A stretch of 64,000 nucleotides of DNA from Cornus controversa. Taxonomy: Eukaryota; Streptophyta; Magnoliopsida; Cornales; Cornaceae. The stretch spans positions 121,461,033 through 121,525,032 of the forward strand of contig CM048845.1 of assembly GCA_026545225.1 (NCBI GenBank), written 5' to 3'. This document shows positions 28,646 to 55,900 of the stretch, piece after piece. Below the pieces are notes generated by a model. That model did not search any database. It was not told where the DNA came from and saw nothing but the letters and a program-made list of their open reading frames with translations. Numbering within the stretch: the first letter of the stretch is position 1; the number at the start of each line of letters is the position of its first letter. Both the position numbers and the translations under genes were made by a program.

Positions 28646-29453
28646 ATGAAGTCCCGTCTTTTCTCATTGCGACCACCTTCTCCATTTCTCTTCTACATAT
28701 TCTTGATTTTAATCAATATGAATCCTCTATCTTCAAATGATACTACTAATCAATGGTACACAAAGTGTGGTACTATGTTCAACTGTGGGAAGATCACTTC
28801 AGTGGATTACCCTTTTTGGGGAAGTAACCAGCCTGCAAATTGTGGCTATCCTGGACTACAGTTAGATTGTGATGATGGTATTCCTGATATACAGATTATG
28901 GATGTGGAATACAAAATTTTGGATATCAATCAAAATACCAAAGTTCTCAAAATCACAAGGAAGGACTTCATGGAGGATATTTGTCTAGAAAATTTTTTCA
29001 ATACAACCCTTGATTCCACACTCTTTGACTATGCTTCAGGGTATGAAAATGTTACATTTCTGTATGGTTGTCCCCCTTCTGATGTGCCTATCCGCGGACA
29101 GTTCACTTGTCCCATTGATGGGATTAGACCTCAGGGTGGTTATGTTAGGCTTGGAGCTCATGGCCCCGGGTCATGTCACGCTAGTGTTGTTGTGCCCATT
29201 GCTACCAGATTTACTAGGGAAGTTGGAAATTTGTCGCGTTTAAGTCGAGGCGTTAGAGATGGGTTTGAGGTGAGATGGAAGGTTGATGCTACAACATGCA
29301 GTGAATGCAGAAGCTCAAATGGACAATGCGGACATGACCTTGTTTTGAATCAGTTTTCTTGCTTTTGCCCAAATCAGTCCTCTGGTTCCAAGACCTGCAC
29401 TACTTCACTGGCTGATAGAGGTATCTCCCCCCAAGCTTCTCCAACTACACCAG
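28646..29453 (+). CDS. LRK10L ectodomain exon A (GUB_WAK_bind + WAK_assoc), no kinase attached
   Basis: Extracellular cysteine-rich module of the LRK10L/WAK-like receptors. The family is thought to sit at the cell wall; the ligand here is unknown. ATG 28646, hydrophobic signal peptide (FLFYIFLILINMNPLSS), GUB_WAK_bind domain with CGTMFNCG, DYPFWG and NCGYPGL, several N-glycosylation sites (NTT, NVT, NLS), then the WAK_assoc C-terminus GFEVRWKVD...CSEC...GQCGHD...CFCPN. The exon ends CCA-G before gtatgt at 29454, a good phase-1 donor. If unspliced, the frame stops at 29479. No membrane or kinase exon occurs before the next ectodomain exon at 32328. It is intact with no frameshift. It could splice to a shared downstream kinase (44945 onward), encode a secreted protein, or be a relic. 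Confidence 0.85.
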
Positions 29454-31426
29454 GTATGTATGTACCTCTTTTCATTTGAAGAAAATATGAAATTTCATTA
29501 AACTTAGTTCGAGTGTGACACATTGAACACAGGATACTATTATTGAGTCTCCAGAAAGGAAATGTTTTGTATTGTCAACTCGCTTGTTACATTACGCTAC
29601 TATCATTCTTTTAGATGTCGTATCAACACTTTAGATATGGATCCGCCTCTTCTCCTCCCATACTTCCATCTTTGTTGGGAGAGAGGAGACTGGTAGGGTT
29701 GGATTGTCCAACAAATTTGATTGATCCAGTGTGTGTGAACTGAAGCCATTTGATGTTTGGTCATGCTCCATATTGGGCTGGGCTAACTTACTGCATTGGA
29801 CCAAGGCTTGTTGTATGTGTCCAGAGATCCGAGTGTGCTGAACCAGTCCCATACTGGGCGGGGCTAAGTTTCAGTTTTGACTCCAGCCCATATTTGAACC
29901 ACACACGTGGGCTTATAAATGGGCCTAAATCATACTAATATTTAGTAGGTATAGTTGTTATTAGGCTGTTAGCCCAGGGTATGAGAGGTGGCCTAGTTTT
30001 ACAAATGGAGACTGTTGTCTGATTACGTTTACAATCCATTTAGTGTAAATGCACGGTAAGACTCATTCTACTTAAACTTTATTCGTGTATTTATATCGGA
30101 TTGTAGATCATGATCTTTTTATACGGGTGTATTTATTACGTACTGCGAAGGACGTCAAGGTCACGTGAAGGTTTGTTTTGATTCACACTGATCTTCTTTG
30201 CATTGGAAGAAGTCAAGAATGTGACTTGGATTACAACCGTCCGATTATGTAACGTGATGGATATCTTCTCCTCATAAATTTCCAACCAATATGGTAACAT
30301 TATTTAATAATATGGTTGTTGAGAGATCACAGTTGGGGTTGTACAGAATTAGGTGGGTAGGATGCTAATTAATTAATTAATAATTATACTATGAAAGTAA
30401 ATTTGTAAATTAGTTTATTTTAGATATAAAACTGTTAAATTAAAACCTGAAGAAAATTTTAAATTTAATAACCTTAGCTTAAATCTATTACTAAAATAGT
30501 TTTTTTTTTTTAAAAAAAGAGAAACCATAAGAGGGTATTGTTGTAAGGTTCAATTAAAAAACCTTAGCTTAAATCTATCAATCAATGTCCATTCCAACCA
30601 GACATTTAAAGAAAGAAAAAAAAAAACAATTGATCTCCTCTTAGTCTCGAGTTGAATTATATATTTTAAGGCTTGAATTTTAAACAGTTATAAATAATTA
30701 CTTAAGAAATAAATTCTCTAAAGAATAGATATAAAATATGTAAAGTTATAAATGTATTAGAAGAAAATAAATAAATAAAAGTAATGTTAGAATTGAATCT
30801 GGTTAGGTTCAAAATGTCAACACATTTGTGTTCAATTCAATTAAGTTCGGACTAAAATTTTAATCTCAAGTTCAACTTTAATTACAAAAATAATTGACTA
30901 TGTCACTGAATAATTGAGTTGGGTTACCAAATTGCACTCCTGTATTTTGCAGACTTAATTTGTATTCATATTTTTTATTCCTCTTAAAAAATTGTGTTAT
31001 TTAAATAATTTTATCTAGTGTTTCACGCATGACAATTACATATTTTAATCATGCTATCACATCATGTGCGTGTGAAATTGTTATTTAGTGGGCATAACAC
31101 CAATTAATTGATGTGATTTATTCCAGATTTTCAACTTTGATTGTTCACAATTTGTCCAATTAAGAACTCAACAAATTTTTAACACTAAATGTCACGAAAT
31201 ATAACATCGTGTGACCAACATCAAGGAGTGATAATCACAATCGTGATACAGTGCCTTATTATTTATTTGGGGAGAGAGAAGGGGTTTTTTTTGGCAGACC
31301 TAAACCTAAATTATAGGCTTATAGCTATTATACAGTGAGATGCCAATTTATTTGATATTTTGACCCTACAAGCTTGTGATGGCTTGTTCAGCTGTCATTG
31401 GTTTGGTTTGAAATCATGTGTTACCT
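29454..31426. other. Non-coding sequence between ectodomain exons A and B
   Basis: No kinase or membrane exon was found on reading this stretch. 29640-30170 is less AT-rich, with repeated 'tactgggctgggc'-like phrases, and may be a fragment of an LTR or MITE that I cannot name. The rest is AT-rich. Confidence 0.5.
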
Positions 31427-32105
31427 ACAAGTTACAAATACTATATAAATAGTAAATACATATGACAATATATATATATATATATATATAGAAGCTTAAT
31501 ATAATTAGGATAAAAAGTTCAATCTAACAGTAAAAAGTGATTAAAAAACTAATCATGTGGTCCAAAATATCTTTTGCTATCTAGAGTCTAAAATCACTCT
31601 ACTTAAGGATCACAATTACAAGTGCGTAATAGTGTCATAGACGCGGGCACACACTAGTGTATGTGTATACAAGTTACAAATACTATATAAATAGTAAATA
31701 CAAATGACCATATATATATATATATATATATATAGAAGCTTAGTATAATTAGGACAAAAAATCTAATTTAATAGTCAAAAGTGGTTAAAAAATCAATCAT
31801 ATAGTTCAAAATGTCTTTTGGTTTCTACAGTCTAAAATCACTCTATCTAACGGTCACGGTTACAAGTGTATAATAGTATCGTAAGCACGGGCATATACTA
31901 GTGTGTATATATAAGTTACAAATACTATATAAATAGTAAATATATATATATAAAAGCTTAGTATAATTAGGACAACAAGTTTAATCTAACTATCAAAAGT
32001 GGTTAAAAATTTAATAATATGGTTGAAAATATCTTTTGTTTTCTATGATATAAAATTATTCTTTCTAACCGTCACAATTGCAAATGTACGCTAGTGATTA
32101 GGTAT
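31427..32105 (+). repeat. Three tandem copies of a 242-bp unit upstream of exon B
   Basis: 'aagttacaaatactatataa' recurs at about 31429, 31671 and 31913, a period of 242. Each copy also carries a TA microsatellite, 'agaagcttaRtataattagg' and a 'gcacactagtgt'-like end. The third copy is shorter and its TA run contracted. The array ends about 220 bases before the exon B ATG. Confidence 0.85.
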
Positions 32106-32327
32106 ACAAAATATATATATATATATACATACATACACACACACGCACACAAGTCTCTACGAGTCAATAAAATACTCAAGTCTTTCTCACTATCTTTGAA
32201 TGATCTTGCCATCAAGTGAAGTGATGTCTCTTTCCATATTCCTCTGTACTCTCTCAACCACCTGACTATTTCCATTACTCATCAATATCGTCTCCCAAAC
32301 ACTCTCTCTTCACTGCAGTTTCTTCAA

Positions 32328-33168
32328 ATGAATTCCCAAATCCTCTCAAGCTCTAATTCCCTCTTCCTTCTTTTCCTCCTAGAAATCTTGCTTTTGGTTC
32401 AAGTTCCACCATCTTTGAGTCGCCCATATGAATTTTACTACAAAGCCTGTGGTAGACAGTTCAGTTGTGGCACCATCACCGGAATAGGCTATCCTTTCCG
32501 CGGACAGGAAGAACCTGAAAATTGTGGCTATCCGGGATTAGTCCTCAATTGCAAGGACAGCAAGATCACCACTATTAACATCATGAATTTGACATACAGA
32601 GTATTGGATTTGAATCAGATTACACAAGTTATGAAGATTGCTAGAGAAGATGTTATGGAGTCTACTTGTCCAAAGGATTTCGTTAACACCACACTTGATT
32701 ATGGTATCTTCGATTACGCCTCTCAATATACTACTAACTTTACGTTTCTTTATGGCTGCCCGGATTCATTTACATTTCCGGTTACCCTGCCGGGTTTTAA
32801 CCCAATTAACCTGCCTGGTTTAAACAACCCAATTACTACTTGTGGGTATAATGGTGTTTATGTCGTGCCTGGAGGTCTAGGCCCGGGGGTTTGTAATGCC
32901 AGTGTTATCGTTCCGGTTCTTAGAGATCTGGGTTTGGGAGGATCCACAAAGTTTACGGGTTTGGATGAATTCTTCCGAGAGGGGTTCGAGGTTAGATGGA
33001 AGGTGGATAATAAAGTGTGCAGCGCCTGCACCGGGTCAAATGGACATTGTGGATATGACATTCCTTCAAAACAATCCATTTGCTATTGCTCCGATCCACC
33101 TTACCTGTCGGGTAATTGCTCAATGGCTACCAGAACCAGTAGTACACTGGAATCTACACAAACGCCGG
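32328..33168 (+). CDS. LRK10L ectodomain exon B (GUB_WAK_bind + WAK_assoc), no kinase attached
   Basis: Same architecture as exon A. ATG 32328, signal peptide (SLFLLFLLEILLLVQVPPSLS), CGRQFSCGTITGIGYPFRG and NCGYPGL, N-glycosylation sites (NLT, NTT, NFT, NAS), then GFEVRWKVDNKVCSAC and CGYD...CYCSD. It is closest to exon A of the five (shared GFEVRWKVD, NTTLD..IFDYAS). The exon ends CCG-G before gtaagt at 33169, a consensus donor in phase 1. Unspliced translation would stop at 33233. No membrane or kinase exon follows before 36429. The CT-rich leader before the ATG suits a real transcription start. It is intact; its fate is undecided between splicing to the distant kinase exons, a secreted product, or a relic. 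Confidence 0.85.
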
Positions 33169-34990
33169 GTAAGTCCTCCATATTTACAAAGAAATTTTTT
33201 TCTTCACAACAGCCTATTAAATGCTGCCTTTGACACATTACTATAGTCCAATAGTGCAAAACCTTATATATATATATATAACTGAGTAATATATAAGTTC
33301 CGCTATTTTTTTGACTCAGTTATATGCCGACAAGAGATTGTGAGTCCACTAAATACCGTGGGACTCACAAAGTCTTTGTCCGTTGTTGACACAGTCGAAT
33401 AGGCAGAAATAGAAATATATATATATATAAATATTTAGATCATAAGATTTAGTTGAATCGAGTATAAATGGATGTGGGCTGGGCTGGGTTAGGACTTAGG
33501 GAGATGAGAATTGTATAATTTCTTAAGAGGCCGAAACTAGAAGGAACCCGTGGGCCTCTAAAAGCCTGCTCACAGATTACAGTATTTTACCACCATTGGT
33601 CCTCCTTAGTCCCTCTAACATTATGGTAATTGGCAAAGTGGTGCGTCTAATTTCAATTCTACTTTGTTTTGACGAATATTGCTCCTACTGGTGTATTTTG
33701 ATGGTAATTTCCACATCACATCAGTGATGCATTCACGATCCACATGAATCTTACAAGTTACTATATTAAGTAATACCATGGTATTTTTCTAAGTGCAATA
33801 AAAAGTAATTTTTTTAACAAGGCATTCATAACTTAAGGTCACATAATTCTTCTAAATTTTTGCGTTATGTGTGCGCTCTTGACCAGCTACTCTCTCTACA
33901 AAACATAGAATTTGCTCCTCTGCTCTGTGTGACTGGGTGCATAACTCAACTTGTAAATCACGTGACATAACGTTGGTTTTTCAATCTTTTATTTATACAT
34001 ACTCATATATATAGGTCTAATGGTTGATGGTGAGTGGAACTAAACACCCCGAAAGGACTTCTACATATGGATGTTTTTTGTTTTTTTTGCTTACTCTTAT
34101 TTTGGGATGCTATGAAAAGTATAGTTGAGTTGTTGGTAGGTCACTTTGAAGGAAATGCTGATTTTTTTTTTCTTTATTCTTTTTTGGGTAGATTTTGATT
34201 CCTTACTTCCTTCGAAGATGTTTAACTCTTTTTGGTAGAGATCAAAATAAATCATATATATATATATATTTCACAAGGATATAATGCAAAGTACAAAAAT
34301 TGATTTGTTCTTTCCAATTTTCCAAGTGACAATATAGAAGAAAGTGGTTCCTCAATTAATTCTCTCTCTTTCTCTGCATAACCAAACAGAGGATGACGAC
34401 TCTTTCTCGTCTCATATTCTTTTCCTCTCTGTCCTCCATGACTTAATTTTCTGCTTTTTGACACCTAACCTGAACATATCTCTTAACTAGTCTCTATAAT
34501 AGATACATCTTTTTCATCATAGGCAGGTGAAAATGTTCCCACAGATTATTTAAAAAAACAATGAGGACAACTTTTTCAAAACAAGGACATTTTCTTTAGT
34601 TTTTTTTTTTTTTTTAACACCATTTTCTTTAGTTCTAAACTTGTAGTTTTACCAAGTGTTATGATGTGTTTAATAATCTTTTGGAGGCCAAACTTTTCAC
34701 CAAAAATCTGAGGATGGCCGTTATTTACCGTAAGTTCATGAAGTTCTAGTGTCTGTGTTGACCATATCTCTATCAACATATCTCTTACCAAGTGTTATAG
34801 TTTATGTTTGCATGTACCATAATTGAGTAGTGAATATACAACACGCGAAAAACATACCTATCACACTCTATTTATAATCTTCAAACTCAATTCCTTCTTA
34901 AACATCTCTTTTGGTAATCAGATATTGGAAATAGCCAATAGACCAACTAGCAGGTCCTAAGAAAACAAAAGTCTGAGGCCCTTGCTGAAG
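33169..34990. other. Non-coding sequence between ectodomain exon B and the C/D duplication
   Basis: No kinase, membrane exon or transposon domain seen. Short TA runs lie near 33268-33280, 33417-33428 and 34254-34269. Confidence 0.5.
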
Positions 34991-36428
34991 CTGCTAGAAC
35001 TAGAAGGGGGCTCAAGTATTAACCTGCTGCAAGAGGCTAGCCTTATTTACCCTTTAATCTGAGAGGGTGGTCACCACCGGACCAATGGGCGAATTTTGGT
35101 AGCTAACATGATATATCTCTGGGAAATCTTGCTCATATTTTCCTTATCATCAATACCTGGGTTTCAATTCTCTTCTTGTGTCCTTGGGCTAATTAAGAAA
35201 GGAGTATTTGCAAATGCCTGTTTAGAAGATTAATATTCCGATATATGGAAACTGTGCCACTAGATACCCTGCAATCAACACAATCAAACACATCTGAAGC
35301 TTAATTTAATTGTGATTAAGCTGCGTTGCACTGTACTCCAGCTCTAATTGATCATCATACTGTAAGTACATGGACAGTGCTTTACATCAATTTATGCAAG
35401 CTTCTTGTGTGCCGTGAATCAATGGAAGCTTAGATCAATTAATTACTAAGTAAGCACTAATATATATGTAGGTGTATATATGTATTTGAGGTTGACTGGA
35501 GGACTTATATTAGATATAATGGGTGTGCTATCAATCCACCGAAAGGAATTTTACATGCCATATTGGACCTATTGGTAGTTTGGCAACATTAAGAGCACAA
35601 TTGGTGGACTTTTGCATAATAAGAGAAAAGGGTTGGTAATTGCTTGGAAGAGAACATACCCACCAACTCATTTCTGCAAGTTGGATTCTCATGCAGCCCT
35701 TACTGGCCGGCATCAAATTAAGTTGCCATAGTTCACCAAACTTGTTAGTTTCTGCCAAAATCATCCATTTCAATCCTTCCATCTTCTGTAGTTGGACAGA
35801 AAATCTGATTCTATCTGCCCACATATATATTGAATCTCCAAGCAACAATTATATATGTTATATTAATTTCTTAGTATAACCTTAGAAATTATATATTAAT
35901 GTGAATCCGGATATTCTGTATTGAGTATTTGACTTTGATCTTTCTACATGTTTGCACTACTCAATATAGTTGTGATAATATTAAAATTGAAAGATGGATC
36001 GATCAGTTGCTTAATTTCTTTGGAGGTTGATATATATTCTTACCCCACCTAGAATTCCAATTTTTATTGGTACCCTTTCAGTTTCAAGATGTAAATGCAT
36101 GGCTATAAATTTATAATGTGTATATAGGTTAGGTATATAGATTCCGTGCAGAAAATGCCGTTCACTAATGTAGATTTGTATTTATTTGGACTATGTATGT
36201 ATGTCAACTTTTTCCATTCCAACAGAAGCTTCTCTTTGAAAATTCCTACCAAGTTGCTCTACTTTGTCAAAAGTCATTTAGTTATGATAGGTGATGAGAA
36301 ACCAAATTTTCAAATAATGTCCACATCCTGCTGGCTTTGAATATGAGTATGAGGATGAGGCCAACTCCATCCCCTCCATGGATTTGGGTAGCTTCAAAAT
36401 TTTCATATCTCATATCTCTCTAACAAAA

Positions 36429-37185
36429 ATGCATCCCCAACTCCACCCAACCTCTTTTCTCATATTGATGTTGTTGATCTTCATCTTAATCCTCGACACC
36501 CCCCTGAGATGTGTATGTGCGGATGATGAGAAATTCACGACCTGCGGTGATCAGTTGTTTCAGTGTGGACGCCTTGCGAAAATTAGCTATCCTTTCTGGG
36601 GAGGGAGCCGACCTGCTTACTGTGGTCACCCGGGTTTTGAGCTAAGCTGCCAACAAAATGTCCCACGGCTCACAATTCTGTCAACAACTTACCGAGTGCT
36701 AGGAATCGACAACCCAGCAGTGACTCTCACAGTTGTTAGAGATGATTTCTGGGATAATATTTGTCCAACATATCTCCGTAATTCTACCTTGGATTCCAAT
36801 CTCTTCAGCTATACTTCCAATACTGGGAACTTGACTTTGTTCTATGGTTGCCCCTTGATTCCTGGCCAAACGCAGCCACTGCCTAATCAGTTTAGTTGCA
36901 CAGTGAACCGTACCGAGAGCAACAGCTATTATTTGACCAGTCTTGAAACATGCAACAACACAATCATAGTTCAAGTTTTAGCTAAGGATTTAACAAGCAC
37001 TACAGCTTCAGTGAATATTTCAGCAGCTATTAACGGTGGTTTTGGGTTACAGTGGCAAGCAAATGATGCATCTTGCAGCCAATGTCTCCAATCGGGTGGG
37101 CAATGTGGGTATAATGATTCATTTACTTGCTACTGCGCGGATCAATCTTATCCATTGGATTGTAACGGCAATCAAACCGGAACTG
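36429..37185 (+). CDS. LRK10L ectodomain exon C (GUB_WAK_bind + WAK_assoc), no kinase attached
   Basis: I chose the ATG at 36429 because it gives a clean signal peptide (hydrophobic core FLILMLLIFILIL) and is shared with exon D; an in-frame ATG at 36378 would add 17 residues without hydrophobic character. The domain shows CGDQLFQCGRLAKISYPFWG, YCGHPGFELSC, YRVLGID, DDFWDNICP and LTLFYGCPL, then GFGLQW...CSQC...GGQCGYN...CYCAD. There are many N-glycosylation sites. The exon ends ACT-G before gtatgt at 37186 (phase 1); unspliced, it stops at 37283. No kinase exon lies before exon D at 39456. Exon and flanks are a recent duplicate of D. Confidence 0.87.
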
Positions 37186-37598
37186 GTATGTGCCCCGCCC
37201 CTAATCTCTTGTTGCGCCTTGTACGTTTAGCTATATATATAAGTCCTCCATCATATAAGGATCGGACTAAGGTAAATAATTAAGGTCCATCAATATCACT
37301 GTATAATATTATTGGCTGCTCGGTCTTTGCTTTTGTCCTTGTTTTTTGCCTCTTCGTACTCACTCCAGATCAAGCTTCCTCATGCTCTAATATGGTTTAC
37401 CAAAGTTTTTTCAATTTTATACTGAGTCCTCGAGCTTACAAAGTGACTTATTATAGTTTTGAGGATTTCTTGCACCTTCATTCTGGACATATGATAATAC
37501 TATTTTCTAAGTGTCCTTGAATTAGGTATTACTATCCATCAATTGCTTATTCAATTCAACAAATAATTATTTGTATGAATGACTCAAAGCCACCTCAA

Positions 37599-37602
<4 letters not shown>

Positions 37603-37652
<50 letters not shown>
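37603..37652 (+). repeat. (AT)25 microsatellite
   Basis: Uninterrupted AT repeat downstream of exon C; absent at the corresponding place in the duplicate copy. Confidence 0.95.
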
Positions 37653-37655
<3 letters not shown>

Positions 37656-38059
37656 AATAAGCCTCCACTCTCAATCCTCCATTGAAAATTTTGTGGAAGC
37701 CTCTAAGCAGTAGTACGTCAGTGTTGATATCTCGGGAAGCGTGGTTCATTTCTAAGCCCTAAACTAAGTGTCACACACCCAACCCATCATTATCATTGTC
37801 CTTGATCCTGATCCTGATCCTGATCCTGTCCAAATACATCAAAACCCTTCAAAATATGGTACTCCATTAGTACTACCATGGAAAAAGCGCCCGCTTGAAT
37901 TGACTTCTGTACCATTTTTTTTTTCTTACTTTATTACCAATACCGACTCCTGCAAGTTTGAATTTAAAACTAAACAAACTTAGCTTAAATCTATTAACCT
38001 TAGCTTCATATGACCAGAACCCACTATGAATAACACATCAGAATATACTTGAGCCCCTT

Positions 38060-40510
38060 CTGCTAGAACTAGAAGGGGCTCAAGTATCAGCCTGAACTGA
38101 GAGGGTGGTCACCACCGGACCAATGGGCGAATTTTGATAGCAAACCTGATATATCTCTAGGAAATCTTGCTCATATTTCCCTTGTCATCAAGGCATTGGT
38201 TTCAATTCTCTTTCTTTTGTGTCCTTGGGCTAGTTAAGAAAGGAGAATTTGCAAATGACTGTTTAGTATTCAGATATATGGAAACCATAGCACTAGATAA
38301 TCTGTAATTAACTAAATCAAACACATTTGAAGCTCAATTTACAGCTCTGATTGATCATCAGACTGTAAGTACATGGACAGTGTTTTACATGCCTTCCTCT
38401 GCACATCAATTTATGAAAGCTTCTAATTGTGTGCCATGGATCAATGGAAGCTTATACCAATTAATTACAAGCAAACACACACACACACACACATATATAT
38501 ATATGTGGGTGTATATGTATTTGAGATTGAGTGGAGAACTTATCTTAGATATAATGGGTGTGCTAAGGAATTTTACATGCCATATTGGTAGTTTGGCAAC
38601 ATTAAGAGCACAATTGGTGGACTTTTGCAGAATAAGAGAAAAAAGGGTTGGTAATTGCTTGGAAGAGAACATACCCACCAACTCATGTCTGCAAGTTGGA
38701 TTCTCAAGCAGCCATTACTGGGAGGCATCAAATTAAGTTGCCATAGTTCACCAAACTTGTTAGTTTCTACCAAAGTCATCCATTTCAATCCTTCCATCTT
38801 CTGTAGTTGGACAGATAATCAGATTCTATCCGCCCACATATATATTGAATCTCCAAGCAACAATTATATTAATTTCTTAGTATAATTAACCTTAGAAATT
38901 ATAGGAGGTGGGCACCTAATTAAATATTAATGTGAATCCGGATATTCTGCATGTATTGCGTGTTTGACTTTGATCTTTCTACATGTTTGCACTGCTGATA
39001 GTTGTGATTGATAATATTAAAATTGAAAGATGGATCAGTTGCTTAATTTTTTCAGAGGTTGATATATATGGTTACCCCACCTAGAATTCCAATTGTTATT
39101 GGTAGCCTTTCAATTTCAAGTTGTAAATGCATGGTTATAAAATTATAATGTATCTAGGTTAGGTAGATTCCGTGCAGAAAACGCGGTTCACTAATGTAAA
39201 TTAATTTGTATTTATTAAGACTATGTATGTATGTCAACTTTTTCCATTCCAACAGAAGCTTCTCTTTGAAAACTCCCACCAAATTGCTCTACTTTGTCAA
39301 AGGTCATTTAGTTATGATAGGTGATGAGAAATAAAATTTTCAAATAATGTCCACATCCTGCTGGCTTTGAATATGTGTATGAGGACTGTATGAGTTTAGT
39401 GGGTAACTTAAAAATTTTCATATTTCATATCTCTCTCTCTCTCTCTCTCAAAAAAATGCATCCCCACCTCCACCCAACCTCCTTTCTCATATTTAGGTTC
39501 TTGATCTTCATCTTAATCCTCCACGCCCAGAGATGTGTATGTGCCGATGATGAGAAATTCACCACCTGTCGTGATCAGTTATTCGAGTGTGGAGACCTTA
39601 CGAACATTAGCTATCCATTCTGGGGAGTGAACCGACCTGCGTACTGTGGTTACCCAGGTTTCAATCTAAGCTGTCAAGAAAGTGTCCCACGACTCACAAT
39701 TCAGTCAACAACATACCGAGTGCTAGGAATCGACAACACAGCACAGACTCTCACAGTTGCTAGAGATGATTTCTGGAATAATATTTGTCCAACATATCTC
39801 CATAATGCTACCTTGGATTCCAATTCCAATCTCTTTAGCTATACTTCCAATACAGCGAACTTGACTGTGTCCTATGGTTGCCCCTTGATTCCTGGCCAAA
39901 CGCAGTCACTGGCGCCTAATCAGTTTATTTGCACAGTGAACGGTACCGAGAGCAACAGCTATTATTGGATCACCAGTAACTTTGAAGTGTCAACATGCAC
40001 CCACACAATCATAGTTCAAGTTTTAGCTGAGGCTTTAAAAAACACTTCACTGAATATTTCAGCAGCTCTTAACGATGGTTTTGGGTTACGGTGGGAAGCA
40101 TATGATACATCCTGCAACCAATGTGTCCAATCTGGTGGGCGATGTGGGTATAATAATGATTCGAATTCGTTTACTTGCTACTGCGCGGATCAACCTTATA
40201 CATTAGAGTGTGGCGGGACTCCAAGCGGAACTGGTATGTGCCCCCCTAATCTTAGCTTGTTGCTCTCGTTTACCCTAGTCAAGTGTTGATATCTAAGGCC
40301 TAAACTATTACATATGGATTAGGAATATGTGTAGTAATCCAACCTGTTTTTTACATATCTCTTGTTCTTCGGCATTCTATTTACCCTCTTTGGACTTCTG
40401 TTGAATTTTTAAAAAAAAGGTGTCATAGGATCCAAATAGGTCTTGTTGTGTCACACACCCAACCCATCCTTGTCCTTGATCCTGTCCAAGTACATCAAAA
40501 AAAACCCTTC
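38060..40510 (+). repeat. Segmental duplication, copy 2 (contains ectodomain exon D)
   Basis: Partner of 34991-37850. Small indels separate the copies: a (CA)n(TA)n at about 38475-38504 and a CT run before the ATG at about 39432-39449 are specific to this copy. Confidence 0.85.
39456..40233 (+). CDS. LRK10L ectodomain exon D (GUB_WAK_bind + WAK_assoc), no kinase attached
   Basis: Near-twin of exon C. The start at 39456 is chosen on the shared MHP.LHPTSFLI signal peptide; the in-frame ATG at 39375 lies upstream of a CT-run leader. Domain landmarks: CRDQLFECGDLTNISYPFWG (the first domain Cys pair starts TTCRD, so the usual CG is CR), YCGYPGFNLSC, DDFWNNICP and YGCPL, then GFGLRWEAYDTSCNQC, GGRCGYN and CYCAD. 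It differs from C by small in-frame insertions (SNSN, WITSNFEVS) and many substitutions. The donor at 40234 (ACT-G/gtatgt) is phase 1. Unspliced translation ends at 40289. No kinase exon lies before exon E. Confidence 0.87.
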
Positions 40511-40614
40511 ATAATATGGTACATATCTTCTTTCCTACACTAGCTCTTACCTTTACTGGTTAGGGAATTACATAAGTTTCAAATCCTTGTTGAACAACGG
40601 ATATGCAGTATCTC

Positions 40615-40952
40615 CCAAAATAATAAAATAGTAGTAATTAATCTCATACAAATCGGTTAAGATTTTGTTTTGCAGAACTTTTGTTTCGACTTTTATGCAG
40701 AAGAAAAAGAGAAGCAGAAATTAAATTAAAAAGTTAGTATTCACCAGTTTTCTTTGAACGCTTTTTTTGAACTTTGAAGAGTACCAAAATAATAAAATAG
40801 TAGTAATTAATCTCATACAAATCGGTTAAGATTTTGTTTTGCAGAACTTTTGTTTTGACTTTTATGCAGAAGAAAAAGAGAAGTAGAAATTAAATTAAAA
40901 AGTTAGTATTCACCAGTTTTCTTTGAACGCTTTTTTTGAACTTTGAAACTCT
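40615..40952 (+). repeat. 169-bp tandem duplication
   Basis: The block beginning ccaaaataataaaatagtag at 40615 is repeated at 40784 almost base for base, including 'aaatcggttaagattttgtt' and 'tcaccagttttctttgaacg'. Only a few substitutions are visible, so the duplication is recent. Confidence 0.92.
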
Positions 40953-42333
40953 TCGATCCTACCAATTCAAACACTCTCTAAAACGACATTTTAACTTCAA
41001 AAAATCAAAAACCTCTTCTTAAAAGCCATCCAAACATAGCTAAATAGGGTTGATACCACTGCCATGGAAAAACGCCAACTTTGACTTCTGTTTTCAGTGC
41101 TTTCCTACCATATTTTTTTTTCCTACTTTATTGCCAATACCGACTCCTGCAAGTTTGAATTTTGACTGGTAGGTTTTATATTCTGTAAAGTACTACTAAT
41201 AATATTTATCGTGTATATATATATATATGAAGCTGGCTTTATTTTTTATTTTTTTATTTTTCATAGAAGCTGGCTTTATTGACTTAGTGTTTGCTCTTCT
41301 GATACTCGATATATTATTATAAGCAGTACAATATACGTTTGGTTCCCGGTACTTTCGTCGATGGTTTTAAATGGGAAAATTATAGAATACCCAAACAGAT
41401 CGTTCATGTATAAGAAAGAGTAGAGTTGGTAAACAATTCACAGATTGGTGTGAGTAGCCTATTAACTACTCCAACTGTACGTAATTAATTCTTTCTATAT
41501 ATTACTAAATTAAATTGACTAAGGTTTCTTCGTTGAATAAAAAGTAGGGCTTTCTATTTAATAATCTTATTATTTAAGAAAGGATAAGATTATTAATTAT
41601 TTTATAGGTTTTTTTATTGTTAATTTTTTAATGCCTACCAAATTTTTCCATAACAATAATAATGCAGCATTATTTTATTATATATTTTTGATTAGTTAAA
41701 TACTCTCGTGCATATCTGTGGTTTTTTTTTTCTTTCAATTTAAAAGATAGAGACAACAACAAAAAAATTTTAATAACTCACACACTCGATTACAGAGACT
41801 CAATCTTTATTTTATTCAAGATATATATATATATATAGTTTTTTTCCCCGGGTATGTGACAATAGAATATTGTGGTCTTTGCGATGACAGGCTAAATGGG
41901 ATAAGATTAAACAAAGTTTCGATTGAACAATTCATTTGTTTTGTGTGGTTGGTAATGACAAAAACAGTATAATGACAGGCTATATAATATGCACTAAATT
42001 TAAAATATTGAATACACTTGAAAGAAACATGTGAAATTTATATTGATCATACCGATATTTAAATTTTATGAAAAATAGGGCTCTAATATTAGGTCAAAAT
42101 GGACTGCAATACTCCTCTAATAAGTAATACCATACCATACAATGCAATATTGCAATGGCATTAAACATGAAAAGTTTCAATACAGGACAACCCCACAAGA
42201 ATCTCAGAGTCAACTAAAGCCAGCCAGCCTCCATGCTGAGATCATTCAACGTTCAAAATTCCAACCACCCGAGACTCACTTCAAAACCCTTCTCTCTCTA
42301 TCTTACTCATGACTCTCTCACTCCTCCATCCAA
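40953..42333 (+). promoter_or_regulatory. Non-coding region and leader upstream of exon E
   Basis: AT-rich with small TA runs and no gene. The last about 100 bases before the ATG at 42334 are CT-rich, as in plant TATA-less leaders. Confidence 0.45.
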
Positions 42334-45300
42334 ATGCCTCTCTCTCACTCAACTTCTCTTTTCTCCTTCTCTCCGATCATCGCCGCCGTCCTCACCGTCT
42401 TCTCCGGCTACCTCACGGTGTCGTTTTCTGAAGGTATCACCTACTCCGATTGTGACCGTACCTTCACCTGTGGTTCCATCAACGACATCACCTATCCGTT
42501 CACCGGCGGCGACCGACCAAATTTTTGCGGCCCATCCGGGTTCCGACTCACATGCCGGGACAACCACACCGAGTTCACTACTAACTCAGTGACTTACCGA
42601 GTTCTTCAGATAAACCAAAGTGGAAAAACCCTAACCCTTGCCAGGTTAGACCTATGGAACAACACTTGTCCCCAAACGTTTGTCAATTCCACTCCTAATT
42701 CTACTCTTTTCAACACCAGTGTGGGAAATGTGGATCTTACGCTGTTCTATGGTTGTTCTTCTCCGCCTATACCCTACGAACGTCACAATCTGTTTAATTG
42801 CAATGTGAGTGGATTCAATTCTAGTGATGCCTATTCCTTGATTGGTCCGGTTCCAAGTGATCCGATTGCCGGAATCATTAGGTGCGACGTTAGTATCACG
42901 GTTCCAGTATTCTGGGACGCCGGTCAGAGGCTCGCCGGCAATCGGTCCACTCTGGGGGAGGTTTTGATGGGAGGTTTTAGTGTGAATTATATTGACCCTT
43001 ATGATAATCAGTGTTCGGAATGTACTGGGTATGGTGGGCGATGTACATTTGATTCAAATTCGGAAGAATCTGTTTGTATGTGCGATAACAGACCGTGCCC
43101 TGTAAATGCAGCTCCTCCTGCTCCTCCTACTCCTAGAGCAGGTACTTCACCTTTCCTGCCATGGAAGTGATAGTTGTTAAGGATTTATTTATAATTTATT
43201 GTCATTATTAGAAGCGTTTGAGTAGAATTGAAGGGGATGAAAGAGTACTCTTCCCCCCACAGTCCAGGTAAAGAGGTTAGCATAATTTCATTTTGTTGGT
43301 TTTCTACATAGAAGGGCTTTGCTTATGAGTTATTACTAGGATTCAATAGTGTTTCATGGGAGTAGTATTATCATTGAATAATGTTTGACAAGGCACTTAT
43401 ATACAGTGGATATGGTATAGTTCAAAGAGTATAGTGTGGAGTATATCTAGTCACCTTCATCAATTGTGGCCTCATATCTGGGAATTTTAGGCAAACGTTC
43501 TGACTTCTGATTCTGTGTCTATAAATGTGTCTAGCCCTATGGTTATTTGGGGGGCCCTCAGTGAATGTTTAGTTCTCTCCTTACAGACAATCTTAGCCTT
43601 TTAGGCTCTTAAGAGTACCAAAAATGGAAAATTTAGTTCACCTTCTGGCATGTTATCCTCTATCAGCTTAATTCCGTCAGTCTTCTCTCCTCTTTATTAA
43701 ACATACATTGTACTTCACACGTCACAATCCCTATGATATCCCACATTTATGGTTCTCTAATTTCATAATACAATAACGCGGAACTTCAAATTTGCTGTAC
43801 TGCTCTTTGTCGATAATATGTTCATTTGTTAGAAACGTGGGTATACAATTTATGAAACATAAAGGATTAGAGAAGTCAATTTGCTGAAGCCAAACCTTCC
43901 CATGGTGCCTAGGTCCTGAACTAGTTTAGTTGTTACCATAACTAGACTTAAATTCACCCCTCAACATGCCCACAAAGTCTGATTTTGATGGAAGAAAGGT
44001 TGTTAGAGAAACAACACAACCTGCAATTGAGTCTGGAATTCTTTATTCTTTTATTGAGTGCTAATTGTAATCATCATTCATCATGATTGGTTACAGAGAA
44101 GAAACTAAAAATGATTGGTTGTTGAAGTTTCAGTGGTTTCATTTATCATATCTGGTCATTTACAAAAGAAAGGAAGTTACAGAGAAGAAACCAAAAACAA
44201 AATGATTGGTTGCTGAAGTTTCAGTGGTTTTATTTCGTGTCTGTATTAGTTTTATGCGAGATGAGTTGTGCCCCTTTTGCATCTATTGCTTATCAATATT
44301 AATATCTGGTTTTAAGGTCCATTGTTTTGCTCTTTACTTCTTGATCTCTGACACCACAAGCAATTGTGGACAAGGTTAAATTTTTTCTTTCCCTAGTTGG
44401 TACACACCCACCCCCAAAGAATTGTTTGCACCCAAGAGGACTTGATCCTTAGACCTAATGCTTGCTAGGCACAAGGGTCAAGTTCTTTATCCACTTGAAC
44501 CAACCCCTTGGGATTCTGGACAAGGTTAAATTCATTCACAAAAGTGCTCGAGATGATCAATATAACGAGTTACGAGCTCATCTATTTTATTGAAAGTTTA
44601 TGTAGCAAAACTTTAATTTGCCTTTCTATTACCTGCATTTTTGTTTCTTGGGCATTCTAGAGAAGAAGTATTTTAGTAGATCCTTTTTCTTTTCCAATTG
44701 TTTTTTGAAATTGTCACTTTCTTCCTACTTGGTGGTCGTACTCAGCGACAGGATGTTTGCATCTATACAGACTGCTAGCTAACAATCTTAGTGGATTAGT
44801 TTATTGGAAAGGTTGCATGGAGAAGAACAGTTACCAACAAACTAATTGGAAGAATATAATTCAACTATGGATCACCATTTTAATCTAATTTGATTTAGTC
44901 ATTCCTGTTTCAACTAACGTTTCTGGATCTCATGATTGTTGCAGGGAGCAGTAGTCAACCTCCATCTGGTAAAAAAGAAAATGTGACACTTCCAATAGGT
45001 ATTATGTCATCCTGTTAGAAACAGACCTTGATATTTTCAAGTTCCAACATGGTTAGTGGCTTGGTAAAGAAATTTAATTCCTTATCTTTTATTTCCAGGC
45101 CTCGCCATAGGAGGTACACTCTTTCTTTGCGTTGGCCTAGCATGGTTTTTCTTATCCTGGAGACAAAAGAAAAAACGGCTCGCTGCAGAATCTGTGCAAA
45201 CTAAAAGCAAAGACATTGAGGCTCCTCCTTCAAGCAAAGGCCTTTCTATCACTCCTTCAACTAATTTCTCCCAAAGCATTCCTTCTTATCCCTCCTTGTC

Positions 45301-46477
45301 CTCAAAGTCTGACCTCGAAAAGGCGAGCACCTACTTTGGAGTTCAGGTCTTCAGCTATGCTGAACTCGAAGAAGCCACTGAAAACTTTGACCCTTCTAAA
45401 GAACTTGGAGATGGTGGCTTTGGCACTGTGTACTATGGTACGAGGATAAACCCTTGTATATCTAATCAGTGGCAATATAACCACGCATTTAATAATTGAT
45501 TTGTCTTTTCTGAACTGGTTCTTTCAATTCTATCAGGCAAGCTCCATGATGGTCGCATAGTTGCAGTTAAGCGCCTATACGAGAACAATTTCAAGCGTGT
45601 GGAGCAATTTGTGAATGAAGTTCAGATCCTGACTACTTTACGGCACGAAAACCTAGTGACACTGTATGGATGCACGTCGAGACGAAGTCGAGAACTCCTC
45701 CTTGTTTATGAATATATCTCTAACGGAACGGTGGCCGATCATCTACATGGCAAACGAGCAAATTCTGGTTTGCTTTCTTGGCCTGTCCGATTGAGCATTG
45801 CCATAGAAACAGCTGATGCTCTGGCTTACCTTCATGCATCAGATGTCATTCATCGCGATGTCAAAACCAACAACATTCTCCTAGACAATAACTTCCGTGT
45901 AAAAGTGGCTGATTTTGGGCTTTCTCGATTGTTTCCCAATGATGTAACCCATGTGTCGACTGCTCCACAAGGGACGCCTGGCTACGTTGATCCTGAGTAC
46001 TACCAATGCTACCAACTAACAGAGAAGAGTGATGTTTATAGCTTTGGGGTTGTTTTGGTTGAGCTTATCTCAGCAAAACAAGCTGTGGACACCAATAGGC
46101 ATCGGCATGATATTAATTTGGCAAATATGGCCGTCAACAAAATCCAAAATCAGACATTGCATGAGTTGGTGGATCCAACGCTTGGGTTTGAAACAGATAG
46201 TTCCGTGAGGAAGATGATTACATTGGTGGCGCAGTTGGCTTTCCGATGCCTGCAACAGGAGAAGGACATGAGGCCTTCAATGCAAGAAGTGCTGGAGGCT
46301 TTGAAAGGAATCAAGAATGAAAAGTTCAATGTAGAAAAAGCAGAGATAATGGACATTGTGGACATTGTGGATATTACGGAGGATGATGTTGGGCTCCTGA
46401 AGGCTAACCCTCCCCCAATATCGCCAGATTCACAGAAATGGGTTAGCAGCTCGACTACACCTAATTCTAGTGGTTAA
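42334..46477 (+). CDS. LRK10L-1-type receptor-like kinase (complete, four exons)
   Basis: The only complete receptor in the window. Exon 1, 42334-43141: signal peptide, GUB_WAK_bind (CDRTFTCGSINDITYPFTG, FCGPSGFRLTC) and WAK_assoc (CSECTGYGGRCTF, CMCDN), ending GCA-G before gtactt. Exon 2, 44945-44998: short linker. Exon 3, 45099-45437: membrane segment (GLAIGGTLFLCVGLAWFFLSW) with basic stop-transfer RQKKKR, juxtamembrane region and P-loop LGDGGFGTVYYG. Exon 4, 45537-46477: the rest of the kinase with VAVKRLYEN, HRDVKTNNILLD (RD type), DFGLSR, GTPGYVDPEY and a short C-tail. All junctions are GT-AG, phase 1, and frame-consistent. It is an active-looking plasma-membrane Ser/Thr kinase. Intron 1 (1.8 kb) holds a SINE. 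Its entry phase also fits the orphan ectodomain exons A-D. Confidence 0.93.
44367..44532 (-). mobile_element. Au-type SINE with 16-bp target duplication
   Basis: The tRNA-derived element occupies 44383-44516, read on the minus strand. It has an A-box-like ggttcaagtgg and a B-box-like ggatcaagtcc, and the block 'cctcttgggtgcaaacaat' typical of plant Au SINEs. Both sides carry tggacaaggttaaatt (44367-44382 and 44517-44532), a perfect target duplication. It lies in intron 1 of the receptor kinase, antisense to it. Confidence 0.85.
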
Positions 46478-50377: not shown

Positions 50378-50873
50378 TGTGGATCATATAAATAGCACAA
50401 ATAAACGGCCCAAAAGAAATAAAAGAAGGAGCCAGGCCCAAATCAGATCCAACCGTACCAAGGATGGGTTGGGCCAGAATCCACAAGATTGATCAGGCCC
50501 AAATCAGAGACAACCCTACCCATGATGGGCTGACCCAGAATAAAAAGGGGCATACCCCACTTAGGCGTAACAGATGGACCAGTAAAACTCCGGCACAACA
50601 CCCGAACACCCACCTCCTGCTCCAGAAGATTGGAACGATCTACTCATCAAGGATCAAGATAAATACGATTGAAGATAAGACTGAAGTCATCGTTACCCTA
50701 CCACCTCATGCTTCAAGAAGTAGTATAAAAGGAAAGAGACCCCATTGTAGAGAGGGAGAGTTTTTTCCGGAGAGAATAAAATAACAGTAAAAAGTTATCC
50801 TGTTTATTACATTTTTATCTTTGTTTATCTCAATATATCAGTTATCTGAGCGTTATATTTCCTGACACTTACA
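50378..50873 (+). repeat. 5' LTR of the Tat element
   Basis: TGTGGATCAT...ACACTTACA. TATA box tataaaa at 50724-50730. The aataaa at about 50776 suits the poly(A) signal of the same unit in the 3' copy. Transcription probably starts about 30 bases after the TATA box. Confidence 0.93.
50724..50730 (+). promoter_or_regulatory. TATA box of the 5' LTR
   Basis: tataaaa within agtataaaaggaaagag; repeated in the 3' LTR. Confidence 0.75.
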
Positions 50874-50876
50874 CTT

Positions 50877-50895
50877 TGGCGCCTTCTGTGGGAAC
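50877..50895 (+). promoter_or_regulatory. Primer binding site of the Tat element
   Basis: tggcgccttctgtgggaac begins three bases after the LTR. It resembles the TGGCGCC-type primer sites of Tat/Athila elements; the exact tRNA is not assigned. Confidence 0.8.
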
Positions 50896-50946
50896 AGTAA
50901 CGAAAAGCTCCCTGGAATCACCGAAGCATACCATTCAGAGAGAGTA

Positions 50947-52989
50947 ATGGTTGGGTCCACTCGAGCGGCCATTTACACTGATGACTCCCCCCCAATGAGG
51001 GAGGACGAAGACCGTGATGCCAACAATGTGTTAAGACGACAAATGGAGATACTGCAGCAAGAAAATGCGCGACTACGTGAGGAAATACGAGAAGACAGAC
51101 GTGTACCGACAGAACCATTTAATCATGCCAGTCAACAGCCTGAAGACGCGGAGCACCAAGCAAGGCCATATCAACGCTTTGAGAGGAGTATGGTAAATGA
51201 AGAGCCCGCGAGGTTTACTGAACGTACTAAGCCGAATGAAGGGCTCGATCCGATGCGGACAGAGGAGCAGAAGACAATGCATGAACAAATCCGAAGAGAA
51301 GTGGATACGATCAGACGTGATTTCCAAACCGAATCTCCCTCAGATCTGGCTGCACAAGCAGTGCGAGATGTTTTGCAGTCACCTTTTGCAGATCATATAT
51401 TGCAATCAAATATTCCTACAAAGTTCAAGATACCTTCGTTCACCAGTTTCGATGGCCGAACTGATCCCGTTGAACATATATACCATGTTCAACAACGAAT
51501 GGCTTTAAATAACGATGATGATAGTTTAATGTGTCGAATGTTTTCAACTACCCTTTGCGGATCAGCATTGATATGGTTCAAGCAGCGACCTTCAAGAACC
51601 ATTAATAACTTCCAATCCCTTTGTGAGCAATTTATCACTCAATATGTGGGTAATAGGCGACCTAAAAAGACCATGTCCTCTTTGTTCTCCCTTAAACAAC
51701 TTAATGGGGAGCCATTAAAAGCTTTCCTTGCTCGGTTTAATCTCGAAATATCTTTGATCGACGGATGTGATCAATCTACAGAGGTAGAAGCTTTCCGGGT
51801 AACCATGAACAGTGGCACTGAGTTTTATCGAGCATTGTTAAAAAAACCCCCGAAGAACATGGGCATGTTGAACAACAAGGCTCAGGGATATATTGCCATT
51901 GAAGAGGACGATTCTCGCCTGAGTCAACCCTCATCTCTCATTACTGTTGCCCTCCCAAGAAGCAGGCAATTAGGGAACTCATCGAACGAAAATCGAACGA
52001 CCCCCATAAATTTTTCCCCCGGCAAAAGACCCAGGGTCGACCGAAAGGAAACCCCTCTCAAAGTTACGTTGAGTCGTTTGTTCCAAGAAACAGTCAGTCG
52101 GGGCATTTTCAGGAATCCTCCTCCTTTGACAGCTCCAATTGAAATGAGAGACAGGACTAAACACTGCTCTTTCCACAAAGATGTGGGGCACACTACAGAT
52201 GATTGCCGGAACTTACGTAATCAGGTAGAACTCCTCATATCCAGAGGAGAACTGGCCGATTATGTGTTATCTGCTACTGCTTCTCGAAACATTGCACCTC
52301 ATTCCACACGGAAAGTAAATGAAGGGCCACCAGCAAAGATCATTGATACTATTCATGGGCACGCCCAACAATGGAAATCCGATGTCCACATCGTTAAAGG
52401 AAGGAAAAGTCCAAAGGGCAGAAGGGCCATGACGATACGCGATTTTCCGAACGAGCGTGTATCTACCGATATCACTTTCCATCGATGGGACATGTTAAAG
52501 GTGCAGACACCCCATGAAGACCCATTGGTTCTGACTTTGACAATATCAGGATGCCTCGTTCGACGCATTCTTGTGGACACAGGGTCAAGTGCCAATGTGA
52601 TGACCCTGTCAACCTTTGAGCAATTGGGCTTCGCAGCATCTCAAGCAAGTCGAACCCACAATCCCCTTGTAGGGTTTGACGGGACTCGAGTAACTCCTTT
52701 CGGAACTACCCTCCTCCCGATAGAGGCAGCGCACAGAATTCTCAATGAGGTTTTTGTAATCGTTGAGACCAATTCCCCCTATAATGTTATCCTAGGCAGA
52801 GGATGGATCCATAGAATGAGAGGAGTTCCGTCGACACTCCACCAAGTGATGAAATGCTTATCCATCAATGGACAAAGCATTGACAATATATGGGGTGATC
52901 AGGAGGCGGCACGAATGTGTTACGCTGTTGCGTTAAAAGGCATTGAACCTATTGAAGCAATTCCCAACATCCAGGGTCCTTCTCAATAG
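50947..52989 (+). CDS. Gag-protease of the Tat retrotransposon
   Basis: 680 residues from ATG 50947. It has a charged coiled-coil-like N-terminus (about residues 20-60), then the retrotransposon Gag domain (FKIPSFTSFDGRTDP, LIWFKQRPSRTI, SLFSLKQLNGEPLKAFLARF), a Tat-type metal-binding motif CSFHKDVGHTTDDC, and an aspartic protease with DTGSSANV (about residue 545) and a C-terminal ILGRGW motif. It makes the virus-like particle shell and the processing enzyme. The frame ends at TAG (52987-52989), in the same frame as pol and in a readthrough-type context. No frameshift or internal stop is seen. Confidence 0.93.
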   Translation: MVGSTRAAIYTDDSPPMREDEDRDANNVLRRQMEILQQENARLREEIREDRRVPTEPFNHASQQPEDAEHQARPYQRFERSMVNEEPARFTERTKPNEGLDPMRTEEQKTMHEQIRREVDTIRRDFQTESPSDLAAQAVRDVLQSPFADHILQSNIPTKFKIPSFTSFDGRTDPVEHIYHVQQRMALNNDDDSLMCRMFSTTLCGSALIWFKQRPSRTINNFQSLCEQFITQYVGNRRPKKTMSSLFSLKQLNGEPLKAFLARFNLEISLIDGCDQSTEVEAFRVTMNSGTEFYRALLKKPPKNMGMLNNKAQGYIAIEEDDSRLSQPSSLITVALPRSRQLGNSSNENRTTPINFSPGKRPRVDRKETPLKVTLSRLFQETVSRGIFRNPPPLTAPIEMRDRTKHCSFHKDVGHTTDDCRNLRNQVELLISRGELADYVLSATASRNIAPHSTRKVNEGPPAKIIDTIHGHAQQWKSDVHIVKGRKSPKGRRAMTIRDFPNERVSTDITFHRWDMLKVQTPHEDPLVLTLTISGCLVRRILVDTGSSANVMTLSTFEQLGFAASQASRTHNPLVGFDGTRVTPFGTTLLPIEAAHRILNEVFVIVETNSPYNVILGRGWIHRMRGVPSTLHQVMKCLSINGQSIDNIWGDQEAARMCYAVALKGIEPIEAIPNIQGPSQ

Positions 52990-52995
52990 CAGTCA
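52987..52995 (+). promoter_or_regulatory. Amber stop in tobamovirus-type readthrough context
   Basis: The sequence is CAA TAG CAG TCA with TAG at 52987-52989. It fits UAG-CAR-YYA, the established leaky-stop signal of tobamovirus type, with CAA before it as in that signal. Gag-pro and pol lie in the same frame on its two sides. Confidence 0.75.
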
Positions 52996-55900
52996 ACATC
53001 AGTATACGAGAAGGAGAATGACCACGAAAAGGAGTGCCAGGATCATACTCCAGAAGACCTGTTATTTGTGCAGATAGATCCCGCTGACTTGACCCGAACG
53101 AGCCGGATAGGGATTCATGCTACTCGGACAGAGCAAGAAGAACTTACACAATTGCTCCAGCGCAATTTAGATGTTTTTGCGTGGGATCATACAGGAATGA
53201 TAGGAATTCATCCCCACACCGCATGTCACAGTCTGAATGTCAATCCAAAAGTAACACCTGTTAAACAACGCCAACGACGCTTTGCACCTGAACGCAATCG
53301 TATCATTGATGAAGAGGTGCAGAAATTGCTTAACGCTGGGCTAATTCGGGAAGTCTATTATCCTGAATGGATTTCTAATGTGGTGGTCGTTCAGAAGAAA
53401 AATGGAAAGTGGAGGGTATGCATTGATTTTACTAACGTGAACAAAGCTTGTCCGAAGGATAGTTATCCACTACCAAAGATCGATCAAATGATAGATGCTA
53501 CAACCGGTTATGAGAAGTTAAGTTTCTTGGACGCTTATTCCGGTTATAACCAAATCCCGATAAATCCCGGTGATGAAGAGCGGACGTCGTTTATAACCGA
53601 ACGAGGCACTTACTGTTACAAGGTAATGCCCTTTGGGTTAAAAAACGCAGGGGCGACATTCCAACGCATGGTTAATAAAGTGTTTTCTAAACAACTGGGG
53701 CACACCATTGAAGCGTATATAGACGATATTGTCGTCAAAAGTCGAAAGAAAGAGAATCATAACAGAGACTTACAAGAAGTCTTTGATGTGCTCAGAAGAC
53801 ATCGCATCAAATTGAATCCCACCAAGTGTACATTCGGGGTAACCGAAGGCAGGTTTTTGGGTCATATCGTCAGTCATTCCGGAATATCTGTCAGTCCAGA
53901 GCAAGCCAAGGCAATTTTGGAGCATCCTGAACCCAAAACCTTCAGAGATTTACAGGTACTAACAGGCCGAGTCGCCGCGTTAAGCCGGTTTATTTCCAAG
54001 TTATCGGACAAGTGTAAACCCTTCTTTGAAGCAATCCGATCCAAGGGAAGGACTGTTTGGCAAGAGGAACAACGAATCGCTTTGTCCAATCTCAAAAAGT
54101 ATATGGCTCATCCCCCTATTCTCGCAGTGGCATCCGAAGGGGAACGCTTATATCTTTATCTGGCAGTGTCCTCCACATCTACCAGCGCGGTACTCCTAAG
54201 GGAAGAAGATCACAAGCAATACCCAGTTTATTATTCCAGTCGGTCAATGAATGATCCTAAGCAGAGATACAATCCAACCGAGAAGGTTATCTTAGCACTC
54301 GTTCAGGCAAAAAAGAAATTACGGCATTATTTCGAATCACATCCCATCACCGTAGTAACTAACTGTCCCATCCGAAACATATTGAGCAAACCGGATATGT
54401 CCGGCCGCTTGTCTAGGTGGGCTATAGAGCTTAGCTCCTTTGACATCACGTATGTTCCTCGGACATCCATCAAAGGACAAGCTGTGGCTGATTTTCTCCT
54501 TGAGTATGATGATGAAAAGCTTATCGAAAAAACAAAAGAGCCCGAGTGGAAAATGCACATTGATGGGTCTACCAACCAAAATGGGGTAGGCATTGGAATT
54601 GAAATACAAGCTCCCGAAGGATCTATATTGCAACAATCACTTAGATTAAATTTCCTTGCATCAAATAATGAAGCTGAATATGAGGCCCTTCTCCACGGTT
54701 TGGAACTCGCCCGAGAATTACAAATACGCAACCTCCAGGTTAGTTGCGATTCTCAGTTGGTAGTTAAGCAACTAACAGAAGAATATGCTGTAAGAGATGA
54801 ACGAATGCGTGCTTATCAGCATAGGGCTCGATCGATCATAGCCCATATACCTACATTCACCATATGTCATATCCCTCGGTCAGACAACTTCCATGCTGAC
54901 AGCTTAGCATATGCCGCCTCCCATGATCTGGTTCGATCAATTCCTTCGGAGGTTGTTCTTGAACCTAGCATCTCATCTCCAATACAAGTTCTATGCATCC
55001 CTACAGAGCCAAGTTGGATAGATCCTTTGCGACTATATCTTGAAGAGGGCTTGTTACCCCCATCTAAAGAAGAGGCTAAAAGGATACGTCTCACTGCTCC
55101 AAAATATGCTTTAATTCACGGCCGATTGTATAGGCGTTCGCATTCCGGGCCCTACTTACGGTGCATAACCCCTCAGGAAGCCCAACGAGTCCTTAATGAA
55201 ATTCATAATGGGGAGTGTGGAAATCATTCAGGTTCTAGGTCCCTTGCTCACAAAATTCTTCTTCAAGGGTATTTTTGGCCATACCTTGCTAAAGATGCAC
55301 AAAGCCATGTTCTGAAGTGTGACAAATGTCAAAGATACGCTCCTACTCCACATCAGCCACCCGAAGAGCTTAGTTTAATGACCAGCCCGTGGCCTTTCGC
55401 GAGGTGGGCTATGGATATAGTGGGTCCTTTGCCACGAGCCCCAGGAAATAAAAGATATGTACTCTTGGCCACCGATTATTTCACCAAATGGGTGGAAGGG
55501 AAAGCTTATGTTACCATTTCACAAATGGAAGTACAGAATTTTGTATGGTCTCATATTATTTGCAGATTTGGACTTCCTGACTCGATTACAACGGACAATG
55601 GTACCAATCTTGCTGGGGCAGACATACAAGCATTTCTCCAGAAGTATGGCATCAATCAAAAGAAATCTTCTCGGTCATACCCTCAGGGTAACGGACAAGC
55701 AGAAATAACCAATCGTACTATCTTCCAGTGCCTAAAGAAAAAATTGACAGATCGCAAAGGAAAATGGCTTGAGGAACTTCCCAAGGTTCTGTGGGCATAT
55801 CGAACAACCCCAAGAAGACCCACAGGGGCAACCCCGTTCAGTCTTACTTATGGTACTGAAGCTGTCGTACCGATCGAAATTAATCTGCCAACACTTCGGT

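Follow-up and report, generated by a model that had tools for sequence, protein, structure and literature searches.

A putative array of five alternative first exons ahead of a single LRK10L-type receptor kinase

Five intact ectodomain exons (A to E) stand in a tandem run upstream of a single set of membrane/kinase exons (44945-46477) in the window, i.e. the whole stretch of 64,000 nucleotides analysed here, and with high confidence we regard an array of alternative first exons feeding one kinase as the best explanation for this arrangement. The locus would be one LRK10L-type receptor kinase gene in which, we infer, each transcript starts from the promoter of a single ectodomain exon and, since first exons need no acceptor, the donor nearest the cap is joined to the acceptor at 44945, the ectodomain exons further 3' being skipped as intron. 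The outcome would be up to five receptors with a common inside and different outsides, which may also differ in their ligands. It is very likely that more than one of the exons A to E is joined to the kinase, and the use of all five here would follow from the same reading.

Results

All five ectodomain exons lie on the plus strand, at 28646..29453 (A), 32328..33168 (B), 36429..37185 (C), 39456..40233 (D) and 42334..43141 (E, the closest to the kinase), and a scan for open reading frames and donors found in each of them an ATG of its own as well as a phase-1 donor, located at 29453, 33168, 37185, 40233 and 43141, respectively. The sequence-only reading, which had described five plus-strand exons with ATG, cysteine pattern and phase-1 donors, is borne out, all five being open, and with several such exons sharing one donor phase the layout agrees with an LRK10L3-like gene with alternative first exons. 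Each exon matches the Pfam domains GUB_WAK_bind and WAK_assoc (E-values of 1.4e-14 to 3.8e-19), the ectodomain of an LRK10L-1 receptor kinase, and 12 cysteines are invariant across the five. Pairwise identity between the ectodomains of the window is 31-45% (BLAST), the exception being C and D with 72%; A, B, C and E represent the classes of the same names, while D is a class C exon and apparently a recent tandem copy of C. The best counterparts of B, C and E are the Cornus isoforms X1 (71%), X3 (59%) and X2 (75%), respectively. An N-terminal hydrophobic stretch is present in each of the five, as judged by eye from the translations only. Outside the locus, the window also holds a piece of a Peptidase C26 gene (26728-27015), a retrotransposon reverse transcriptase on the minus strand (17562-18197) and, on the plus strand, retrotransposon genes for gag, protease, reverse transcriptase, RNase H and integrase (50866-56250).

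Compared with the consensus MAG/GTRAGT, the donors of A to E agree at 8, 8, 7, 7 and 7 of 9 positions, respectively, and all are in phase 1. Exons A, D and E have no phase-1 site scoring at least 7 in the open reading frame other than the named donor, and B and C contain one further such site apiece; a higher-scoring GT (8/9), in phase 0, is present in C and in E, which counts against the proposal. Read-through of the translated junctions confirmed that all five joins to 44945 stay in frame, so that the five phase-1 donors place every ectodomain in frame with one common membrane segment and kinase. An intron leading from A to the kinase would measure 15.5 kb, again a point against the proposal. 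Acceptor-like sites occur close to the ATG of B and of D, and consequently an occasional internal inclusion of these two exons is possible. Beyond its donor every ectodomain frame continues for 8-33 codons before a stop, which would also suit an alternative in which A to D mainly yield secreted, kinase-less proteins through polyadenylation in the first intron. We consider this improbable, as donors and phase are retained in all five exons and the identity between C and D drops across the donor, from 50/60 before it to 16/24 after it.

The shared part of the predicted gene, also on the plus strand, starts with a 54-base mini-exon common to all forms (44945..44998, acceptor TTGCAG, in frame with all five ectodomains), followed by an exon for the membrane segment, the juxtamembrane region and the start of the kinase (45099..45437), which aligns unbroken to relatives, and by the main kinase exon with the stop (45537..46477; Pfam Pkinase, 5e-46). 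A hydrophobic stretch is read as the membrane segment, by eye in the translations only. The kinase is of the LRK10L-1 type, being 90% identical to Cornus LRK10L 1.4, the nearest among the proteins retrieved, and on the kinase tree it groups with proteins named LRK10L 1.2-1.4, Davidia and Nyssa coming next after Cornus. A tblastn search of the whole window with the kinase, at E-values up to 1, returned, apart from its own exons, nothing but a distant kinase located at about 1175-2287; in agreement with the earlier claim of one downstream kinase set, no kinase remnant was detected between the ectodomain exons, and a hidden kinase exon set, named earlier among the findings that would overturn the proposal, is absent from this search. 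This result bears on a second alternative, namely that A to D are decaying leftovers of tandem receptor genes that have lost their kinases. The presence of a tandem duplication at the locus is in its favor; nevertheless, five open frames that share their invariant cysteines, the missing remnants and the recurrence of the same class order in distant species make it very improbable.

The duplication in question (35059..40263, plus strand) gave rise to C and D and consists of the units 35059-37215 and 38097-40263, with a period of about 3.0 kb. The units align at 82% identity, with 240 gap positions in 2282 columns, which indicates that a promoter-plus-exon unit was copied without the kinase, and D would accordingly be a recent local copy of C within an old array. 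Within the exon, all of the C/D indels are divisible by three (6/6, versus 10/20 upstream), a further point against decay; all 16 cysteine columns are common to both copies, and only 0.038 (3.8%) of simulated neutral copies were free of stops. The ratio dN/dS between C and D is 0.82 (NG86) or 0.98 (YN00), with a bootstrap range of 0.49-1.49; these values near 1 would be compatible with decay, and, as neutrality is not rejected, dN/dS alone is no proof of constraint. A Ka/Ks comparison across the five exons had been proposed as a check, and it was informative for C/D alone, synonymous sites being saturated in the other pairs. Constraint on C and D is thus suggested by the frame and not by the rate. 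Upstream of the two exons, the block 35509-35958 and its copy near 38,530-38,980 differ at about 2-6% of positions, against ~11% in the exon, and this low divergence possibly reflects a regulatory stretch or gene conversion. The intron after D contains a 164-base tandem repeat, 99% identical (40615-40947).

In the annotation of relatives, different ectodomains are modeled on one and the same kinase. The Cornus isoforms X1, X2 and X3 (P0020, P0031 and P0030) are, like other "isoform X" entries, models from annotation; their ectodomains, of type B, E and C, respectively, are 37-39% alike pairwise, and their kinase parts of 434 residues are 100% identical; the three sequences turn identical exactly at the residue predicted from the junction in the window. 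Neither an A-type isoform in Cornus nor a separate counterpart of D was found among the proteins retrieved, and A-type ectodomains on the kinase type of the array occur in Cinchona, Paulownia, Erythranthe and Nicotiana. Among the 168 proteins retrieved, one source of which was the best 120 of 2289 matches, 125 carry the kinase type of the array. A kinase identity of at least 99% was seen in 45 pairs of proteins with ectodomains, and in 39 of these pairs the ectodomains are less than 50% identical. Likewise, in 19 of the 21 groups sharing a kinase at this level, at least two ectodomains are less than 50% alike. Malus and Pyrus proteins occur together in one group, and with the set drawn from the best matches these figures are not counts for all plants. 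The proposal of the sequence-only reading that several ectodomains are spliced to one kinase gains support from the Cornus isoforms and from these groups.

Some annotations of relatives model the ectodomains as separate or merged genes. The array of Nyssa sinensis is apparently split into gene models that have nearly consecutive numbers and come from contigs of one length, P0146 containing two C-type ectodomains, P0035 the E type with the kinase and P0153 a C type with an LRK10L-2 kinase. Several relatives are annotated as ectodomain-only (e.g. P0001, P0005 and P0146), as secretion would predict; against this, annotation places these classes on a kinase in Cornus as well as in many others, and many ectodomain-only models comprise 2-3 ectodomains in a row and therefore look like products of annotation merging. 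Conversely, the shared-kinase isoforms themselves might be artefacts and the kinase belong to E alone, since most entries are predicted models and some plainly merge or split ectodomains. This is the least probable of the alternatives and, in our view, highly improbable, given that many independent annotations agree and that, in the part of the source available to us, peptides back both isoforms arising from two first exons of Arabidopsis LRK10L3 (PMC13136898). In addition, three "lgn" contigs of 2484, 2807 and 2368 bases contain complete open reading frames of 730, 721 and 701 amino acids, respectively, in which an A/B- or C-class ectodomain is joined to a kinase; these contigs are too short for the introns and are, in our reading, probably cDNA.

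The ectodomain tree (94 rows) resolves the groups A/B (support 98), E (100) and C (89; 99/92 in a second tree), each with both asterids and rosids, and within asterids A (95, 8 rows) stands apart from B (99, 11 rows). In contrast to this grouping by class, the kinase tree (74 rows) is ordered largely by species, and 28 changes of ectodomain class were counted along it, with 72 of the 74 rows included; the 2 changes on the ectodomain tree are so by construction, because the classes were read off that same tree. A single clade of the window ectodomains was rejected by the AU test (p 5e-71), as expected given their divergence. All merged gene models with different classes (17/17, 13 from one set and 4 from another), Tetracentron included, follow the order A/B, C, E, kinase, either completely or over a portion of it, and the order in the window is identical to theirs. 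This count leaves out models of a single class (P0146, P0149, P0154 and P0162), one with both ectodomains of A/B type (P0003), P0006, in which a distant kinase precedes three A/B pieces and the order is not the shared one, and P0152, made of two C-plus-LRK10L-2 units. Judging from these trees and models, the array is old, since asterids and rosids have in common both the three classes (A/B, C and E) and the order in which these precede the kinase, and the portion C-E-kinase is also found in Tetracentron.

A second gene of the window bears on the history of class C. At 765-2287, on the plus strand, lies an LRK10L-2-type kinase gene consisting of a 57-base mini-exon (765-821) and a kinase exon, its kinase being 81% identical to Cornus P0151 and about one third identical to that of the array. 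No ectodomain exon for this gene was found within the window; its mini-exon is phase-1-compatible, so that ectodomain exons would fit both genes. C-class ectodomains (36429-40233 and relatives) occur on both LRK10L-1 and LRK10L-2 kinases, as noted for P0151, P0153, P0159, P0160 and P0163, and the LRK10L-2 kinases of the relatives share 56-81% identity with that at 1175-2287. For the 53 rows of the C-class tree that have a known kinase, 7 rows without one being left out, 11 changes of kinase type are counted. With the kinase-less rows labelled L1 (12 changes), the label is not clustered on the tree, 365 of 500 shuffles being as low. Some neighbors of the same genus carry different kinases, as do Sarracenia P0067/P0159 (87% alike), Diospyros P0049/P0160 and Populus P0161/P0163. 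Wrong gene models could lie behind some of these changes.

Discussion

The evidence for joining to the kinase, taken from annotated relatives, is strongest in the case of B, C and E and weaker for A, for which it comes from other asterids only; for D, a copy of C, it is the least direct. Beyond the array itself, we tentatively propose, with slightly less than even confidence, that an ordered array older than the separation of the main eudicot groups serves as a built-in receptor repertoire and that its phase-1 exons act as cassettes which moved repeatedly between LRK10L-1 and LRK10L-2 kinases. Provided that all five exons are in use, a single kinase would read several extracellular cues, providing a small repertoire from a single locus, and new heads could be gained by duplication of an exon rather than of a gene, as in the case of C and D. 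The conserved classes make the ligand of each head and the timing of each promoter directly testable. Surveys restricted to one isoform per gene would miss most of these ectodomains; an inventory of receptor-like kinases, in the part available to us, retains only the longest isoform of each gene (PMC12382012).

The principle is not new. According to the accessible part of the publication, Arabidopsis LRK10L3 has two alternative first exons, yielding proteins whose extracellular parts differ and whose membrane and kinase parts are the same (PMC13136898), and the suggestion of the sequence-only reading that a small Arabidopsis version may be known was right. Two isoforms are reported for LRK10L3, whereas the window contains five candidate first exons that belong to at least three old classes and include the recent C/D duplication. 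The isoforms X1-X3 of Cornus LRK10L 1.4 and similar sets in eudicots, known as annotation only, display the same architecture; in Cornus LRK10L 1.4 no A type and no copy corresponding to D were seen, and the window has both. The Arabidopsis LRK10 genes of Shin et al. 2015 (Plant Cell Rep), reportedly with mini-exon splicing and alternative transcripts, belong to the same family and have a mini-exon near the membrane segment, the counterpart of which in the window is 44945-44998. In the openly accessible literature searched, we found no description of a conserved, ordered, multi-class ectodomain array, nor of C-class ectodomains that, as appears to be the case here, moved more than once from one kinase type to another. 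In clustered protocadherins, variable first exons that each encode an ectodomain are placed ahead of common 3' exons, and the comparison with them drawn at the outset holds for the layout. The proteins are unrelated and the variable exons of the window far fewer, and, unlike in clustered protocadherins, the membrane segment of the locus described here is encoded in the shared part.
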